DNA of 64,000 bases from NCBI GenBank assembly GCA_947629675.1, contig CANREM010000008.1, forward strand, positions 1 to 64,000, read 5' to 3'. Below, piece by piece: positions 23,437-30,461 of this stretch. The stretch is from an uncultured Clostridia bacterium. GTDB lineage: Bacteria; Bacillota; Clostridia; Christensenellales; Borkfalkiaceae. Position 1 is the first letter of the stretch. The number at the start of each line of letters is the position of its first letter. A program made the position numbers and the translations under genes. The notes beneath the pieces were generated by a model. The model ran no database searches and had not been told where the DNA came from. It saw only the letters and a list, made by a program, of their open reading frames with translations.

Positions 23437-23466
23437 TTGACAAGGGAAGATGAGCTATAGTATAAT
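23437..23466 (+). promoter_or_regulatory. Promoter of purA and following genes
   Basis: TTGACA (23437-23442), 18-base spacer, TATAAT (23461-23466). The leader of about 50 bases shows no purine-riboswitch landmarks to my eye. Confidence 0.82.
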
Positions 23467-23524
23467 AAAACATAGTTTTATTAACGAAAATATTCAACTT
23501 TTCGCAAATACGGGAAGGAGAGCC

Positions 23525-24799
23525 ATGCTTACATCAGTCTGCGGCATCAATTGGGGCGACGAGGGAAAGGGCAAGATCGTCGATCTTTTATCGGAGGGAT
23601 ACGACTATGTTTGCCGCTATCAGGGCGGCAACAATGCGGGCCACACCGTTGTCAACGAGAGGGGGAAGTTCATTCTCAACCTGCTCCCCTCCGGTATTTT
23701 GCGGGAAAATGTCGTCAATGTACTCGGCGCGGGCATGGTCATCGACCTCAAACACCTCTCCGATGAGATGGAACGCCTTCGCTCAGCGGGGGTGAAGATC
23801 TCGCCCGAAAATCTCAAGATCAGCGATAAGGCGGTCATCACCATGCCCTATCACGTCCTTTTGGACTGCCTCGAGGAGGACCGTCTCGCCGACAGAAAAT
23901 TCGGCTCCACCCGCCGCGGGATCGCGCCTGTCTATGCCGATAAATACATGAAGAAGGCCTTCCGCATGGGCGAACTTCTCGACCCCGAACGCCTCTTTTC
24001 GAGGGTGAAGGACATCGTCGAATGGAAGAATCTCACCGTCGCGGGGGGCTATCATCACACGCCGATTACGGTGGAAGAATGTATTGAATATTTCAAAAAT
24101 TACGGTCTCCCGCTCAAAGAGTATATCACAGATACGGGACTTCTTCTCGACAGGGCACACAGGGAGGGGAAGAAGATCATGTTCGAGGCCCAACTCGGAG
24201 CCTTGAGGGACATCGACTTCGGCATCTATCCCTTCACCTCCAGCTCCTCTACGATCGCCGCCTATGCCCCCATCGGTGCGGGTGTTCCGCACCTCAGACT
24301 CGATGCGTCCGTCGGCGTGATGAAGGCGTATTCCACCTGCGTGGGAGAAGGCCCCTTTACAGCGGAATACTTCGGCGAAAAGGCGGAGAAACTTCGTGCC
24401 GCGGGCAACGAATACGGCGCGGCGACGGGAAGGCCGCGGAGGGTAGGGCCATTCGATGTAGTCGCCTCCTCCTACGGTATCCGGTGCCAGGGGGCGGACG
24501 AGGTCGTTCTCACCAAGCTCGACGTTCTCTCCGTCTACGAAGAGATCGAAGTTTGCACTGCCTATGAACTTGACGGGAAAATTTTGCACGAATTTCCCTA
24601 TCCCGATGTCCTCGGCCGCTGCAAGCCCGTCTTTGAGAGGGTAAAGGGCTGGCACACGGATATTTCCCAATGTCGCAAAAAAGAGGAGCTTCCCCGCGAA
24701 GCACTCCGATACATCGCCTATCTCGAGGAGAAGTGCGGCTGCCAAATTTCCTATGTCGCCGTCGGGCCGGAGCGCGATGCGATCATCAAACTCAAATAG
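23525..24799 (+). CDS. purA: Adenylosuccinate synthetase
   Basis: GTP-dependent ligation of IMP and aspartate, first step of AMP synthesis. 424 residues, standard. Seen: P-loop-like NWGDEGKGKIVDLLSE near residues 9-24 with catalytic Asp, GGNNAGHT (about 36-43) with catalytic His, and the IMP site around GSTRRGIAPVYADK near 126. ATG 23525 is set by GGAAGGAGAGCC; an upstream in-frame extension would start inside the promoter and is rejected. It heads a six-gene same-strand run ending at mscL. Confidence 0.97.
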   Translation: MLTSVCGINWGDEGKGKIVDLLSEGYDYVCRYQGGNNAGHTVVNERGKFILNLLPSGILRENVVNVLGAGMVIDLKHLSDEMERLRSAGVKISPENLKISDKAVITMPYHVLLDCLEEDRLADRKFGSTRRGIAPVYADKYMKKAFRMGELLDPERLFSRVKDIVEWKNLTVAGGYHHTPITVEECIEYFKNYGLPLKEYITDTGLLLDRAHREGKKIMFEAQLGALRDIDFGIYPFTSSSSTIAAYAPIGAGVPHLRLDASVGVMKAYSTCVGEGPFTAEYFGEKAEKLRAAGNEYGAATGRPRRVGPFDVVASSYGIRCQGADEVVLTKLDVLSVYEEIEVCTAYELDGKILHEFPYPDVLGRCKPVFERVKGWHTDISQCRKKEELPREALRYIAYLEEKCGCQISYVAVGPERDAIIKLK

Positions 24800-24802
24800 A
24801 CT

Positions 24803-25642
24803 ATGCAGAGAACTTTCTATAAAATGCACGGGATCGGCAACGATTACATCTACTTCGATTGCTTCGAAGAGGAGCTTCCCGACCCCGAAAAACTTGCCGT
24901 AAGGCTTTCCCATCGCCATTTCTCGATCGGCGGGGACGGGATCGTGCTTCTTCTTCCGAGCGCGGTCGCCGATGTCAGAATGCGGATGTTCAACGCCGAC
25001 GGCAGCGAGGGGAAGATGTGCGGCAACGCCATCCGCTGCGTCGGGAAATATCTCTATGAAGTGAGAAATGTCAAAAAAGAGTGCATCCGCGTGGAGACGC
25101 TCTCGGGCATCAAGACGCTGAAAATATTTGCCCGCGACGGCGTTGTTTGCTCTGTGACCGCGGACATGGGTAGGGCGGAACTCCTCCCCGATAATATCCC
25201 CGCATGTTTTGAAGGGGAGAGGGTCGTCTCTCATCCTCTCATCGTGGGAGGGACTTCCTACCTTGTGACCTGCGTCTCCATGGGCAATCCCCACTGTGTC
25301 CTCTTCGGAGAAGATCCGGACCATATCGCACTCGAAAAATTGGGTCCGCTCTTCGAACATCATCCCGCCTTTCCCGAGCGCGTGAATACGGAATTTGTCG
25401 AGGTGATTGAAAGAAACGTTCTCAAGATGCGCGTGTGGGAGCGCGGCAGCGGGGAGACATGGGCGTGCGGTACGGGGGCATGTGCGGCAGCCGTTGCGGC
25501 CGTTCTCAACGGATATTGCGACAAGGATGCGGATATCACCGTCAAATTGAAGGGCGGAGAGCTTACGATCCGCTATCGGGAGGAGGAGGTCCTCATGACG
25601 GGGCCAGCCGAATTCGCCTTCCGCGGCGAGGTCGAACTTTAA
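24803..25642 (+). CDS. dapF: Diaminopimelate epimerase
   Basis: Converts LL- to meso-diaminopimelate for peptidoglycan and lysine. 279 residues. Seen: MHGIGNDYIYFDC at 6-18; the two catalytic cysteines in MCGNAIRCVGK (near residue 73) and WACGTGACAAA (near 220); NADGSEGKMCGNAIR matches the family site. It starts 3 bases after purA. With dapL two genes downstream it provides the DAP for MurE. Confidence 0.96.
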   Translation: MQRTFYKMHGIGNDYIYFDCFEEELPDPEKLAVRLSHRHFSIGGDGIVLLLPSAVADVRMRMFNADGSEGKMCGNAIRCVGKYLYEVRNVKKECIRVETLSGIKTLKIFARDGVVCSVTADMGRAELLPDNIPACFEGERVVSHPLIVGGTSYLVTCVSMGNPHCVLFGEDPDHIALEKLGPLFEHHPAFPERVNTEFVEVIERNVLKMRVWERGSGETWACGTGACAAAVAAVLNGYCDKDADITVKLKGGELTIRYREEEVLMTGPAEFAFRGEVEL

Positions 25643-25666: not shown

Positions 25667-27274
25667 ATGACGAAATATATCTTCGTGACGGGCGGCGTCG
25701 TATCCGGCCTCGGAAAGGGGATCACCGCGGCGTCCTTGGGGAGGCTCCTCAAGATGCGCGGCTATAAGGTCGCGTCGCAGAAACTCGATCCCTACATCAA
25801 CATCGACCCGGGGACGATGAGTCCCTATCAGCATGGCGAAGTCTTTGTGACGGAGGACGGTGCGGAGACCGACCTCGACCTCGGGCACTACGAGCGGTTC
25901 ATCGACGAGGACCTCAATAAGTTCTCCAATCTCACGACGGGAAAGGTGTATTGGAACGTCCTCAAAAAGGAGCGTGCGGGGGAATATCTCGGCCAGACGG
26001 TGCAGGTCATTCCCCATATCACCAACGAGATCAAGTCCTTCATCTATCAGGTGGGGAAGGCGACGGATGCGGACATTGTCATCACCGAGATCGGCGGGAC
26101 GACGGGCGATATCGAATCGCAGCCCTTCCTCGAGGCGATCCGCCAGGTTTCCCGCGAGGTGGGGAGATCGAACTGCTGTTTCATCCATGTGACCCTAGTT
26201 CCTTACATCTCGGGTTCCTGCGAATTCAAGAGTAAGCCCACCCAGCATTCCGTGAAGGAATTGCAGGGGATGGGGATCTTCCCCGACATCATCGTCGCCC
26301 GCGTCGACGAGCCTATGCCGGAGTCTATCCGCGAGAAGATCGCCATGTTCTGCAACGTTCGTCCCGAGTGCTGTATCGAAAATCTCACGGTGCCCGTCCT
26401 CTATGAGGCTCCCATGATGCTCGAGAGGAGCAACCTCTCCTCCATCGTTTGCAACATTCTGGATCTTTCTCCCAACAAAATTGATATGAGCGAGTGGGAA
26501 GAGATGCTCACCCGCATCCATGCCCGCAGTAAGACGGTCAAGATCGCGCTCTGCGGCAAATACGTCCAATTGCACGATGCCTATCTCTCCGTTGCGGAGG
26601 CACTCGCCCACGGCGGATACGAGACGGACGCCAAGGTGGAGATCGCATGGGTGGACACCGAGAAACTGACGGAGGGGAATGTGGAACATTTGCTCTTCGG
26701 CGTCGATGGGATCTTGGTCCCCGGCGGATTCGGCGGAAGGGGGATCGAGGGAAAGATCGTCGCATGCAGATACGCCCGCGAACACAACATTCCCTTCCTC
26801 GGGATCTGTCTCGGTATGCATATCGTCGCCATTGAGTTTGCACGCAATGTCCTCGGGATCCCGGATGCGAACTCCACGGAGTTCTTCCCCGCATGCCCGC
26901 ATCCCGTCATCGGTCTCATGTCCGACCAATACGGCGTGAAGATGGGGGGCACGATGCGCCTCGGTGCCAATCCCTGCAAACTCATCGGGGAAAAGATCAA
27001 AGAGATCTACGGGACCGAACACATCTCCGAACGCCATCGTCACCGCTTTGAATTCAACAATGCCTACCGCGCCGCATTCGAGGAGCGCGGCATGAAGATC
27101 GCGGGGACTTCGCCCGACGGCGCACGCGTCGAGGCACTCGAATATCCCGCAAACGATTTCTTCATCGCGGTGCAATTCCATCCCGAATTCAAATCCCGTC
27201 CCAACTGTGCGCATCCGCTCTTCCGTGAGTTCGTGCGCGCGGCGACGGTCTATCGTAAAAATCATGAAAATTAA
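25667..27274 (+). CDS. pyrG: CTP synthase
   Basis: Aminates UTP to CTP using glutamine. 535 residues, standard. Seen: synthetase domain (1-267) with [18 protein letters not shown] at 7-24 and YINIDPGTM; GATase domain with VPGGFGGRG near 348, nucleophile Cys near 380 in LGICLGMH, and His/Glu of FHPEF near 510. Its last 11 bases overlap the dapL start, suggesting translational coupling. Confidence 0.97.
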
Positions 27275-28454
27275 CGAACATTTCTTGGATCTATCCGAAA
27301 ACTATCTCTTCTCGACGGTAGGCGCAAAGGTGAGTGCCTTCCAAAAAGCACATCCCGACAGGAAGGTCATCAAGCTCTCCATCGGGGACGTGACCTGCCC
27401 GCTCGCACCCGCCGTCATTGCAGCCATGCACCGCGCCGTGGAGGACCTCGCCCATGCGGAGAGTTTCAAAGGGTACGGTCCCGACCGCTATTGCTACGGC
27501 TACGATGTCCTCATCGACTCCATCAAGGGGAGCTATGCAAGAAAGGGCGTCCGGATCTCTTCCGATGAAGTCTTTATCTCGGACGGAGCGAAGTCCGACC
27601 TCGGGAACCTTTTGGACCTCTTTTCCGCGGACAACGCCGTCCTCATCCCCGACCCCGTCTATCCCGCCTATGTAGACAGCAATCGTATGGCGGGGAGGCG
27701 CGTCCTCTTCGCGGACGCAAACGAAGAGAACGGCTTTCTGCCCATGCCCGATGAAGGGGTGGATGCGGATCTCATCTACATCTGTTCCCCCAACAATCCC
27801 ACGGGTGCGGCCTATAACAGACAACAGCTGAAGGCATGGGTGGATTATGCGATAAGAAAGGGGGCAGTCATTCTCTACGACGCCGCTTATGAATACTTCA
27901 TCGAGGATCCCACCCTTCCCCGTTCCATCTTCGAGATCGAGGGGGCGCGGGAATGCGCCATAGAGATCTGTTCCTATTCCAAAACTGCCGGATTCACGGG
28001 CGTCCGCTGCGGCTATACCGTCGTCCCCAAAGAGCTGAATCGTGGCGGCGCATCCTTGAACCGCCTTTGGGCGAGGAGGCAGTCCACCAAATTCAACGGT
28101 GCGTCCTACATCGCACAGATGGGCGCGGCGGCCGTCTTTACCGAAGAGGGGGAGAGGGAGATCGCGGCGAACATCGACTATTATCGCGGCAATGCGAAAA
28201 CGATCGCGCACTGCCTCGAGGAGCTGGGCATCTGGTATACGGGCGGGAAGAATTCGCCCTATCTCTGGATGAAATGCCCCAACGGCATGAAGAGCTGGGA
28301 ATTTTTCGATCATCTTTTGGAACGGGCAAATGTCGTCGGCACGCCGGGCAGCGGCTTCGGCAAGAACGGCGAGGGTTTCTTCCGTCTCACCGCATTCGGA
28401 ACGGCGGACAGTACCCTTGAAGCGTGCCAAAGGATGAGGGAGCTTCTGAAATGA
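27264..28454 (+). CDS. dapL: LL-diaminopimelate aminotransferase
   Basis: PLP enzyme that makes LL-DAP directly from tetrahydrodipicolinate, the short route used by many Clostridia. 396 residues. Seen: [14 protein letters not shown] at 12-25, [11 protein letters not shown] near 38-48, [14 protein letters not shown] near 74, SDGAKSD near 110, [10 protein letters not shown] near 176, and the PLP lysine in [16 protein letters not shown] near 238. The start at 27264 lies inside the end of pyrG; the stop overlaps the malQ ATG (ATGA). Confidence 0.94.
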
Positions 28455-29938
28455 CGAATAAATTCAAACGCGGCGCAGGGATCCTGTGTCACATCTCCAC
28501 CCTTCCGGGGAAGTACGGCGTCGGCTCTCTCGGCGGCGACGCCTTCCGCTTTGCCAAACTTCTTGCAAAGAGCAAGGTGAAATATTGGCAGGTCTTGCCC
28601 ATTGCGCAGACTGGATTCGGCGATTCGCCCTATCAGGCCGTCTCCTGCAGTTCGGGCAATCCCTATTTCATCGACCTCGACCTCCTCGCGAAGGACGGCC
28701 TTCTCACCAAAGAGGAGCTGAGGACTGCGCGTGCGACGGAGATCGACTATGCCGCGCTTTATGCTTCCCGGTATCCGCTTTTGCGCACCGCGTTCTCTCG
28801 CTTCAACTTCGACGGGAAGAACTTCCGTGCCTTCATCAAGAGCGGGACTTCGGAGGACTACGCGCTCTTCATGACGGCGAAAGTCGTCTTTGGCGGGACA
28901 TTTGCCGATTGGCCGGAGGAAATCAAGCGGCACGATGCGGATGCCTTGGAGGAGCTTCGGACGGAATACCATGAGGAGTACCTCTTCTGGCAGTTTTTGC
29001 AATACGAATTCCGCAAACAGTGGATGGCCCTCAAGAAATATTGTAAGGGGCTTGGTGTCAAGATCATCGGCGAGATCCCGCTCCTCTGCGCATACGACAG
29101 CGCGGATGTGTGGGCACATCCGAAGCTCTTCAAACTGGATGATGAGCTGCGGCCCGCCAAAGTCGCGGGCGTTCCCCCCGACTATTTCTCCGCCACCGGC
29201 CAGCGTTGGGGATATCCTGTCTACGATTGGGCGGCGCATGAGAGAGATGGCTTCGCATGGTGGAGGGCACGCCTTCAGGACGCCTTCCAGCTGTACGATG
29301 TCGTGCGCATCGGCCACTTCGTGGGGCTGGAGAGAGGTTATGAACTGCCTGCCGACGCAGAGAATGCGGAGGGCGGCATCTATACCGATGGCCCGAAGGA
29401 GAAGATATTTTCGGGCATCAACTATGCGGGCAGAGTGATCGCGGAGGACCTCAGTTCTGCGGACGAAGGTGTGAAAGATCTCCTCCAAAAGACGGGCATT
29501 CCCGGGACGAAGGTGCTGCTCTTTGCCTTCGACGGGAGGGAGGACAACGAATTTCTCCCGCATCTCTATGGGGAGAACTGCGTCTCCTACACGGGCACAC
29601 ATGACAACGACACTGTCTCGGGCTTTGTCGGCTCGATGAGTGCGGAGGAATACATCCTCTTCCGCTCCCGCCTTGCGGCGGAACTCGAACGCTTCGATGT
29701 GCGCGTCCGTCTCGGCGACAAGGGGGAGGGCATCCCCGAGGCATTCATCCGGTTGTCCCTCGCCTCCAAAGCGAACCTTTCCATCATTCCCATACAGGAT
29801 CTTTTGGGACTCGACAGTGAGGCCCGCATGAATCTTCCCGGTACGGCGGAGGGAAATTGGAAGTTCCGCCTTTCTCGGCAACCTTCTGCCTTTACCATGG
29901 GCAGGTTGAAAAAATTGATAAAAATTTATCGGAGGTAA
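28451..29938 (+). CDS. malQ: 4-alpha-glucanotransferase (GH77, MalQ-like) lacking the nucleophile Asp
   Basis: GH77 amylomaltase homolog, 495 residues, full length. Family role: transfers alpha-1,4-glucan segments in maltodextrin/glycogen metabolism. Seen: GILCHISTLPGKYGVGSLG (8-26), SPYQAVSCSSGNPYFIDLD (about 59-77), the acid/base Glu332 in VIAEDLSS and stabilising Asp385 in YTGTHDNDT. However the nucleophile motif, normally RIDHFRG, reads RIGHFVG: codon 288 (29312-29314) is GGC, glycine. The rest of the fold is intact, so this is not decay by frameshift. Either an inactive/regulatory homolog or one with shifted chemistry. Overlaps dapL; followed by mscL. Confidence 0.88.
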   Translation: MTNKFKRGAGILCHISTLPGKYGVGSLGGDAFRFAKLLAKSKVKYWQVLPIAQTGFGDSPYQAVSCSSGNPYFIDLDLLAKDGLLTKEELRTARATEIDYAALYASRYPLLRTAFSRFNFDGKNFRAFIKSGTSEDYALFMTAKVVFGGTFADWPEEIKRHDADALEELRTEYHEEYLFWQFLQYEFRKQWMALKKYCKGLGVKIIGEIPLLCAYDSADVWAHPKLFKLDDELRPAKVAGVPPDYFSATGQRWGYPVYDWAAHERDGFAWWRARLQDAFQLYDVVRIGHFVGLERGYELPADAENAEGGIYTDGPKEKIFSGINYAGRVIAEDLSSADEGVKDLLQKTGIPGTKVLLFAFDGREDNEFLPHLYGENCVSYTGTHDNDTVSGFVGSMSAEEYILFRSRLAAELERFDVRVRLGDKGEGIPEAFIRLSLASKANLSIIPIQDLLGLDSEARMNLPGTAEGNWKFRLSRQPSAFTMGRLKKLIKIYRR

Positions 29939-29942
29939 GTTT

Positions 29943-30461
29943 ATGGCAAAAGAAAAAAAGTCGGGCTTCTTTAAGGAATTCAAAGAATTCATCTCCCGCG
30001 GGAATGTCCTCGACATGGCTGTCGGCATCATCGTCGGCGGCGCGTTTACGGCGATCGTCACAGCGATCGTCAACGGGATCCTCACGCCTCTCCTTCAGGC
30101 GATCGGCGTCGGTCCCGACGGCTTCGGTGCCCTTCAGGTTATCCTGAACGAGTCCAAGTATCTGGCCAATCCCGAGACGGTGACGCCCATTATTCTGGAC
30201 TTCGGCATCGTCATCTCCGCGATCATTACCTTCCTTCTCACGGCATTTATCCTGTTCCTTATCGTGTTTACGATCAACAGGATCCGCAGAAGAGCGGAGG
30301 CCTTGAAGGCGAAGAAAGAGGCCGCCAAGGCGGCGGAAGAGCCGGCTCCCGAGCCTGAACCCGCACCTGCACCCGCTCCCACGACGGAGGAACTTCTCGC
30401 CGAGATCCGCGACCTTTTGAAGGCGCAGCAGGGCGGTGACAAGACGGGACCCGAGGAATAA
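29943..30461 (+). CDS. mscL: Large-conductance mechanosensitive channel
   Basis: Pentameric emergency valve opened by membrane tension. 172 residues, somewhat long (usual 130-150). Seen: N-terminal amphipathic helix with FKEFISRGNVLDMAVGIIVG, TM1 with GGAFTAIVTAIVNGILTPL (about 30-50), a periplasmic loop, TM2 (about 80-110, ISAIITFLLTAFILFLIVF), then basic RRRAEA, and a C-terminal tail with a Pro-rich EPAPEPEPAPAPAP linker before the bundle helix TEELLAEIRDLLK. The linker explains the extra length. Ends the purA unit at a strong terminator. Confidence 0.95.
   Translation: MAKEKKSGFFKEFKEFISRGNVLDMAVGIIVGGAFTAIVTAIVNGILTPLLQAIGVGPDGFGALQVILNESKYLANPETVTPIILDFGIVISAIITFLLTAFILFLIVFTINRIRRRAEALKAKKEAAKAAEEPAPEPEPAPAPAPTTEELLAEIRDLLKAQQGGDKTGPEE

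Follow-up and report, generated by a model that had tools for sequence, protein, structure and literature searches.

What becomes of an amylomaltase that has lost its catalytic nucleophile and is nevertheless retained? This question is raised by a gene for a MalQ-like protein of glycoside hydrolase family 77 (GH77), here called P0001, located in a window (the whole stretch of DNA that was analysed) of 64,000 nucleotides from an uncultured Clostridia bacterium (genome G000; Table 1). The reading frame of P0001 is open, its ATG start overlaps the dapL stop codon (ATGA) and the next ATG is found 4 nt after its end. The protein scores above the cut-offs of both curated GH77 profiles over its full length (494.9 bits for Pfam PF02446, cut-off 25; 282.1 for NCBIfam TIGR00217 malQ, cut-off 205.65). 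Because it passes the TIGR00217 cut-off, pipelines that use the malQ model would call it an active 4-alpha-glucanotransferase. An AlphaFold2 model, obtained with a 47-row alignment, has a pLDDT of 91.3. The first 33 Foldseek matches of this model were amylomaltase or DPE1 structures with the TIM-barrel fold, the best one being 5jiw, the structure of the Thermus D293A/D395N mutant.

Table 1. Position of P0001, of its active-site codons and of the neighbouring genes in the window, followed by two orthologs on other loci
Feature	Position	Strand	Remarks
purA (adenylosuccinate synthase)	23450..24799	+	Usual neighbour in genus; profile matches start at residue 28-30, so the real start may be further downstream
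dapF (diaminopimelate epimerase)	24803..25642	+	Usual neighbour in genus
pyrG (CTP synthase)	25667..27274	+	Usual neighbour in genus
dapL (LL-diaminopimelate aminotransferase)	27264..28454	+	Stop overlaps P0001 start
P0001, nucleophile-less GH77 (MalQ-like) protein, 495 aa	28451..29938	+	Frame, profile matches, Thermus alignment, model
Codon 208, GAG (Glu), where GH77 has Asp213	29072..29074	+	Glu in 3/9 nucleophile-less orthologs
250s loop (gate), residues 242-250	29174..29200	+	Kept in P0001; altered or shortened in G002 and G122 orthologs
Codon 288, GGC (Gly), GH77 nucleophile position Asp293 (Thermus numbering)	29312..29314	+	
Codon 332, Glu, acid/base, Thermus Glu340	29444..29446	+	Kept in 9/9 nucleophile-less orthologs
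Codon 385, Asp, transition-state stabiliser, Thermus Asp395	29603..29605	+	Kept in 9/9 nucleophile-less orthologs
mscL (large-conductance mechanosensitive channel)	29943..30461	+	Start 4 nt past P0001
G002 ortholog	L066:3599-4975		Open frame
G122 ortholog	L127:7286-8659		Open frame

Residue equivalences were taken from a HMMER alignment of P0001 with the Thermus thermophilus amylomaltase (1fp8). This alignment is free of gaps between residues 206-309 of the query and 211-314 of the chain, placing residue 288, in the motif VRIGHFVG, opposite Asp293; Glu332 and Asp385 are aligned with Glu340 and Asp395. Asp293, Glu340 and Asp395 are the catalytic residues of GH77 enzymes (PMC8465469), and it is the equivalent of Asp293 that makes the glycosyl-enzyme bond (PMC7990933). 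Two of the three residues expected of an EC 2.4.1.25 enzyme are thus present in P0001, while the nucleophile is replaced by Gly288. Given the chemistry of the family, the usual covalent intermediate of the double-displacement cycle cannot form in the absence of Asp293. A previous sequence-only reading had described P0001 as a GH77 MalQ homolog with the nucleophile Asp replaced by Gly, with Glu332 and Asp385 intact and the frame undamaged, and the alignment confirms this description.

The distribution of the loss was followed across the genus, where 97 genomes in a set of 103 contain a match to P0001. Matches were separated by their identity to P0001 into an A-type (at least 48.5%, 95 genomes) and a B-type (25 genomes). 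The nucleophile column could be read in 166 of 171 GH77 rows, which were taken from the genus, from the order and from database loci, giving 153 Asp, 12 Gly and 1 Ser. Four of the 13 non-Asp rows (L110-L113) are database copies of genomes already counted, which leaves nine genomes with a nucleophile-less A-type gene: G000 itself, G118 (95% identity to P0001), G009 (86%), G092 (80%), G112 (73%), G088 (70%, Ser), G101 (63%), G002 (62%) and G122 (58%). Eight of these species form a clade (seven Gly, one Ser), and the ninth genome, G101, has Gly. The remaining 86 A-type genomes have Asp in all 84 readable cases, G032 and G003 having only fragments that miss the codon; in a count of rows with at least 55.5% identity, Asp is found in 85/85 readable ones (of 89). 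All four species of the subclade of P0001 share RIGHFVG, so that both Gly288 and the FVG context recur in relatives, and all four have GQRWG(Y/F)P instead of GQLWGNP. Sister genomes with GAC at this codon had been named as evidence that would overturn the reading; the nearest ones (95, 86, 80, 73 and 70%) are without Asp, and it is in the wider genus that Asp is found. We also searched 396 genomes of the order and 398 of the phylum for the RIGHFxG pattern (after an NTN codon), which matched 11 and 6 of them, respectively. The matches fell in a GH77 gene only in G000, G009 and G101, for a pattern that detects exact-motif Gly variants only and that missed G088 and G122, both in the sample.

These genomes are drafts, each split into tens to hundreds of contigs, and those with names are metagenome assemblies. 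A sequencing or assembly error, or contamination, could in principle mimic the loss. However, the same loss is found with different codons, at 70-95% identity and in the same gene order. Four database records moreover come from differently named samples (Lapin-023, -012, -002 and -024), making a read or assembly error very unlikely. The name Lapin hints at rabbit gut as the probable origin of these samples, although no fitting paper turned up in a search. With nine genomes and three different codons at the nucleophile site (GGC in five, GGG in three, AGC in one), this explanation was ruled out, its residual probability being negligible.

Other variants were seen among the GH77 rows. The B-type MalQ L133 (G125:C79) has TSTQDS for TGTHDN, so that the active-site His394 is replaced by Gln while the nucleophile is intact. 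L149 (G081:C3) and L148 (G126:C102) are second A-like MalQ copies, with about 50% identity; the usual purA-dapL neighbours are absent from the stretch read, and L148 is near MalF/MalG-like genes. G033 has two A-type copies (L054 and L088) on different contigs, each with dapL and mscL as neighbours; one of them hardly differs from the G120 gene, and the pair may reflect a strain mixture in the assembly.

The position of the gene identifies it within the genus. The order purA-dapF-pyrG-dapL-malQ-mscL surrounds A-type genes in intact and nucleophile-less species alike, with dapL directly upstream of malQ in 89/89 genomes having at least 900 bases upstream and mscL downstream in 92/95; the nine nucleophile-less genomes all show both neighbours. 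P0001 is therefore the genus's own malQ in its usual place, the positional ortholog of the intact MalQ. Its association with purA, dapF, pyrG and dapL had been considered unusual; it turns out to be the standard location of malQ in the genus, and the recurrence of this gene order disposes of an odd operon as an explanation.

In malQ trees computed without the nucleophile and gate columns, the eight clade species lay on one side of a branch with an SH-aLRT support of 99, with 147 rows as well as with the 96 A-type rows. G101 was placed among intact genes, yet a single clade of all nine was not rejected (p-AU 0.46), which leaves one or two losses; judging from these trees, the Gly of G101 may be a second, independent loss. 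A tree of four neighbouring genes was built for 54 genomes, including seven of the eight clade members (G118 had too little sequence). The free quick tree split these seven and joined G101 to three of them in a supported group, whereas the tree holding the seven together had a likelihood higher by 14 units (p-AU 0.63). The tree from pyrG alone was poorly resolved.

We then compared the selection acting on the two kinds of genes. GY94 omega values for the nucleophile-less set were 0.103 (eight species), 0.091 (six species) and 0.069 (the four species of P0001's subclade). Two sets of eight intact A-type orthologs gave 0.081 and 0.092. A second MalQ present in the same eight, six and four species (see below) gave 0.049, 0.047 and 0.045, so that the nucleophile-less values are 1.5 to 2.1 times as high. 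In six to seven of these species, omega was 0.07 for purA (224 codons), 0.104 for dapF, 0.046 for pyrG and 0.092 for dapL. With omega set to 1, and tree and kappa fixed, the log-likelihood dropped by 687, 561 and 364 units for eight, six and four species. Pairwise counts between G000 and G118 agree (dN 0.021, dS 0.404), many deeper pairs being near saturation in dS. No in-frame stop was found in the nine nucleophile-less orthologs, while about 12 would be expected from a neutral simulation at 0.4 changes per site. Purifying selection on the P0001 gene is comparable in strength to that on its intact orthologs. A pseudogene, with its disabled frame and relaxed selection, is ruled out, the frame being open in 9/9 and omega 0.069-0.103. 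The gene could also be decaying if the second MalQ had made the resident copy redundant and left it drifting. The redundant paralog does exist and the acceptor side of the cleft erodes in part of the clade, but the omega close to that of intact orthologs, the absence of stops in 9/9 and the place kept in a tightly packed gene run largely refute such a decay, which we consider highly improbable.

The sequence-only reading had proposed looking for a second, intact malQ in the genome, and one is indeed present in G000, where a B-type MalQ is encoded at C12:19500-20963. An intact second MalQ was found in all nine nucleophile-less genomes and in 14/86 others (Fisher 7e-7, kinship uncorrected), or in 13/84 others without the two genomes unreadable at the codon (Fisher 5e-7, kinship again uncorrected); only one or two loss events underlie this link between nucleophile loss and second MalQ. 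The nucleophile being gone, the loss being conserved in sister species and an intact malQ being present elsewhere in the genome, the proposal that P0001 is not a normal glucanotransferase is well founded.

One B subtype, B2, occurs in the eight clade species and in no others, and its copies group together with a support of 100; the second MalQ of G101 belongs to another B subtype. In 8/8 B2 copies, the 17 residues that PMC8465469 lists for the cleft are intact. The B2 loci (L001/L089 in G000:C12 and seven others) carry the motif THDNMPL(R/K). B2 adjoins genes similar to a binding protein and to MalF/MalG permeases in 8/8 species, with two of the three genes in G092, at a contig end. The transporter genes on contig C12 of G000 encode an SBP_bac_8 protein and two BPD_transp_1 permeases, the best NCBIfam matches of the latter being MalF and MalG, below the curated cut-offs. 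This arrangement suggests that B2 and the MalFG-like transporter constitute a catabolic unit, either gained or retained. Genes with PF00343 (glgP-type phosphorylase) and PF08323 (glycogen-synthase-type) were detected in 20/20 genomes examined (the nine nucleophile-less ones and 11 others, chosen out of the 103), which makes glycogen a plausible substrate. In 9/9 genomes, the nucleophile-less protein thus has a catalytic paralog in the same cell, the activity of the paralog being presumed from its sequence.

Which parts of the active-site cleft have been kept was assessed with residue roles drawn from PMC7990933, PMC4705983 and PMC8465469. Across the nine nucleophile-less orthologs, donor-side residues are changed in 2/63 cells of the tally (one of seven columns) and acceptor-side residues in 27/72 cells (eight of eight columns); the corresponding p-value of 0.0014 is descriptive only, as the changes were already known when the split was made on the basis of these papers. 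S57, R291, H394, D395, N464, P466, E340, D341 and T393 (Thermus numbers) are unchanged in 9/9. In the four species of P0001's subclade, only the Gly343 position is changed among 19 tallied residues (Ser in two). The Thermus D293A/D395N mutant is reported to bind a 34-mer cycloamylose (PMC8465469), so that loss of Asp293 need not abolish binding. Non-catalytic glycogen binding by P0001 would fit both the kept donor-subsite residues and the behaviour of this mutant.

Conservation of the cleft is not uniform. Tyr212, Leu252, Asn255, Arg291, Tyr296 and Trp311 (P0001 numbers, letters of the intact orthologs) are replaced in all four species of the subclade. As a whole, the 17 cleft residues of PMC8465469 are not better kept than other conserved columns, 10/17 being unchanged in all eight species as compared with 96/156. 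The G002 and G122 proteins lack segments at about P0001 residues 251-257, 294-312, 320-323 and 335-337. Much of their gate is gone, as are the equivalents of Trp258 and His294, and the platform Tyr has become Phe. Their sequences look like a further stage of remodelling, and the absence of much of the gate and of the platform Tyr means that glucan binding may not be a function shared by the whole set. If the barrel were kept only as a scaffold, for a protein contact or another role at this locus, sugar binding would be irrelevant. Such a moonlighting role would account for the open frames of these two orthologs despite four missing loop segments, for the predicted folding of the G002 protein (pLDDT 88.4) and for the usual locus; on the other hand, a protein kept purely as a scaffold would not be expected to preserve its sugar pocket, and here the donor side is spared relative to the acceptor side. 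In P0001's four species, all of the 19 tallied residues but the one at the Gly343 position are untouched, even though other cleft positions differ there. We regard it as unlikely.

P0001 could also still be an enzyme, with Asp293 replaced by water, phosphate or another anion in an inverting attack, or by a neighbouring carboxylate. The acid/base Glu and the stabiliser Asp, kept in 9/9, speak for such chemistry. The equivalent of Asp213 hydrogen-bonds or touches the nucleophile carboxylate in several GH77 crystal structures (PMC4705983), and this position is Glu in G000, G118 and G009 only. That the carboxylate of Glu208 fills the vacated space in these three proteins, acting after the ancestral loss as a nucleophile relocated to a different barrel strand, is a very remote prospect, and Glu208 is missing in 6/9 orthologs. 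An inverting phosphorylase releasing beta-glucose-1-phosphate would want a beta-phosphoglucomutase. The sisters G118 and G092 do have one over the curated cut-off, though GH65 genes beside it explain its presence; the other seven of the nine draft genomes have none over the cut-off (135-154 bits in G088, G122 and G002 for a cut-off of 189.4, weak matches only in G000, G009 and G101, none in G112). G000 is without GH65, and since this genome is 91% complete the absence is no proof; its gene content, as sequenced, gives no support to an inverting phosphorylase. The Thermus D293A/D395N protein is described as inactivated, albeit as a double mutant (PMC8465469). Taken together, a surviving enzyme with other chemistry appears quite improbable.

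The reading that we favour, with a confidence only slightly better than even, is that P0001 is a pseudo-amylomaltase: the resident MalQ minus its nucleophile, freed by the transporter-linked MalQ and now a glucan-binding, non-catalytic partner or sensor. P0001 has two marks of a pseudoenzyme, a missing catalytic motif and a fold that is kept (in the model) and selected. According to this scenario, the transporter-linked second MalQ would have taken over disproportionation, freeing the resident copy; the latter would then have lost its nucleophile and, with it, the glycosyl-enzyme intermediate. Its donor side would still hold a maltodextrin or glycogen chain end, and the protein would serve as a partner or sensor, much as ISA2 does beside ISA1 in plants, acting perhaps on the intact MalQ or on glycogen. 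An interaction between P0001 and the second MalQ is only conjecture, by analogy. Several observations count against a glucan-binding pseudoenzyme. Glu332 and Asp385 would also have been retained in a protein with some residual chemistry; the 17 cleft residues are no better kept than other conserved columns; formerly conserved cleft positions are changed in P0001's four species; and omega exceeds that of the second MalQ.

The classification and naming of glycoside hydrolases follow homology. We found no earlier report of a natural GH77 protein without its nucleophile in the open-access full-text literature, nor in the accessible part of a 2024 review (PMC11046441). A selected nucleophile-less GH77 with 84 Asp-bearing sister orthologs, at the same locus wherever the available sequence was long enough, and with a live paralog next to a transporter, offers a clean system for the passage from an enzyme to a non-catalytic protein. 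It allows one to ask whether dead glucan enzymes act as partners in bacteria, as ISA2 does in plants, and its natural variants could be used to separate the cleft residues needed for binding from those needed for catalysis alone.

P0001 shares with the Thermus amylomaltase (1cwy/1fp8) its fold (TM 0.90-0.92 and 40-42% identity by Foldseek, on the predicted model), the acid/base Glu, the stabiliser Asp, Arg291, His394 and gate positions 247-251 and 255. It differs by Asp293 to Gly (Ser in G088), Asp213 to Glu, Gly343 to Ser, Asn260 to Tyr and Tyr301 to Gly in the 1fp8 alignment. The D293A/D395N mutant with bound cycloamylose (5jiw) is likewise a GH77 protein without nucleophile, and it binds a long glucan (PMC8465469); however, it is man-made and also lacks the stabiliser, whereas P0001 is natural and has kept it. 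Non-catalytic paralogs of glucan-active glycoside hydrolases are already known, and the nearest precedent, by analogy, is plant ISA2 beside ISA1, in family GH13, a nucleophile-less non-catalytic paralog kept by selection beside a catalytic one (PMC12510319). ISA2 belongs to another family and varies at four or more of five conserved residues, as compared with one of the three catalytic residues in P0001; ISA1/ISA2 complexes have been demonstrated (PMC12510319), while a complex of P0001 with the second MalQ would be conjectural. More distant is the Trypanosoma prozyme, a dead paralog retained beside live AdoMetDC (PMC5201418). This enzyme is unrelated, and its activation through a heterodimer has been demonstrated (PMC5201418), a mode of action that for P0001 would be conjectural.
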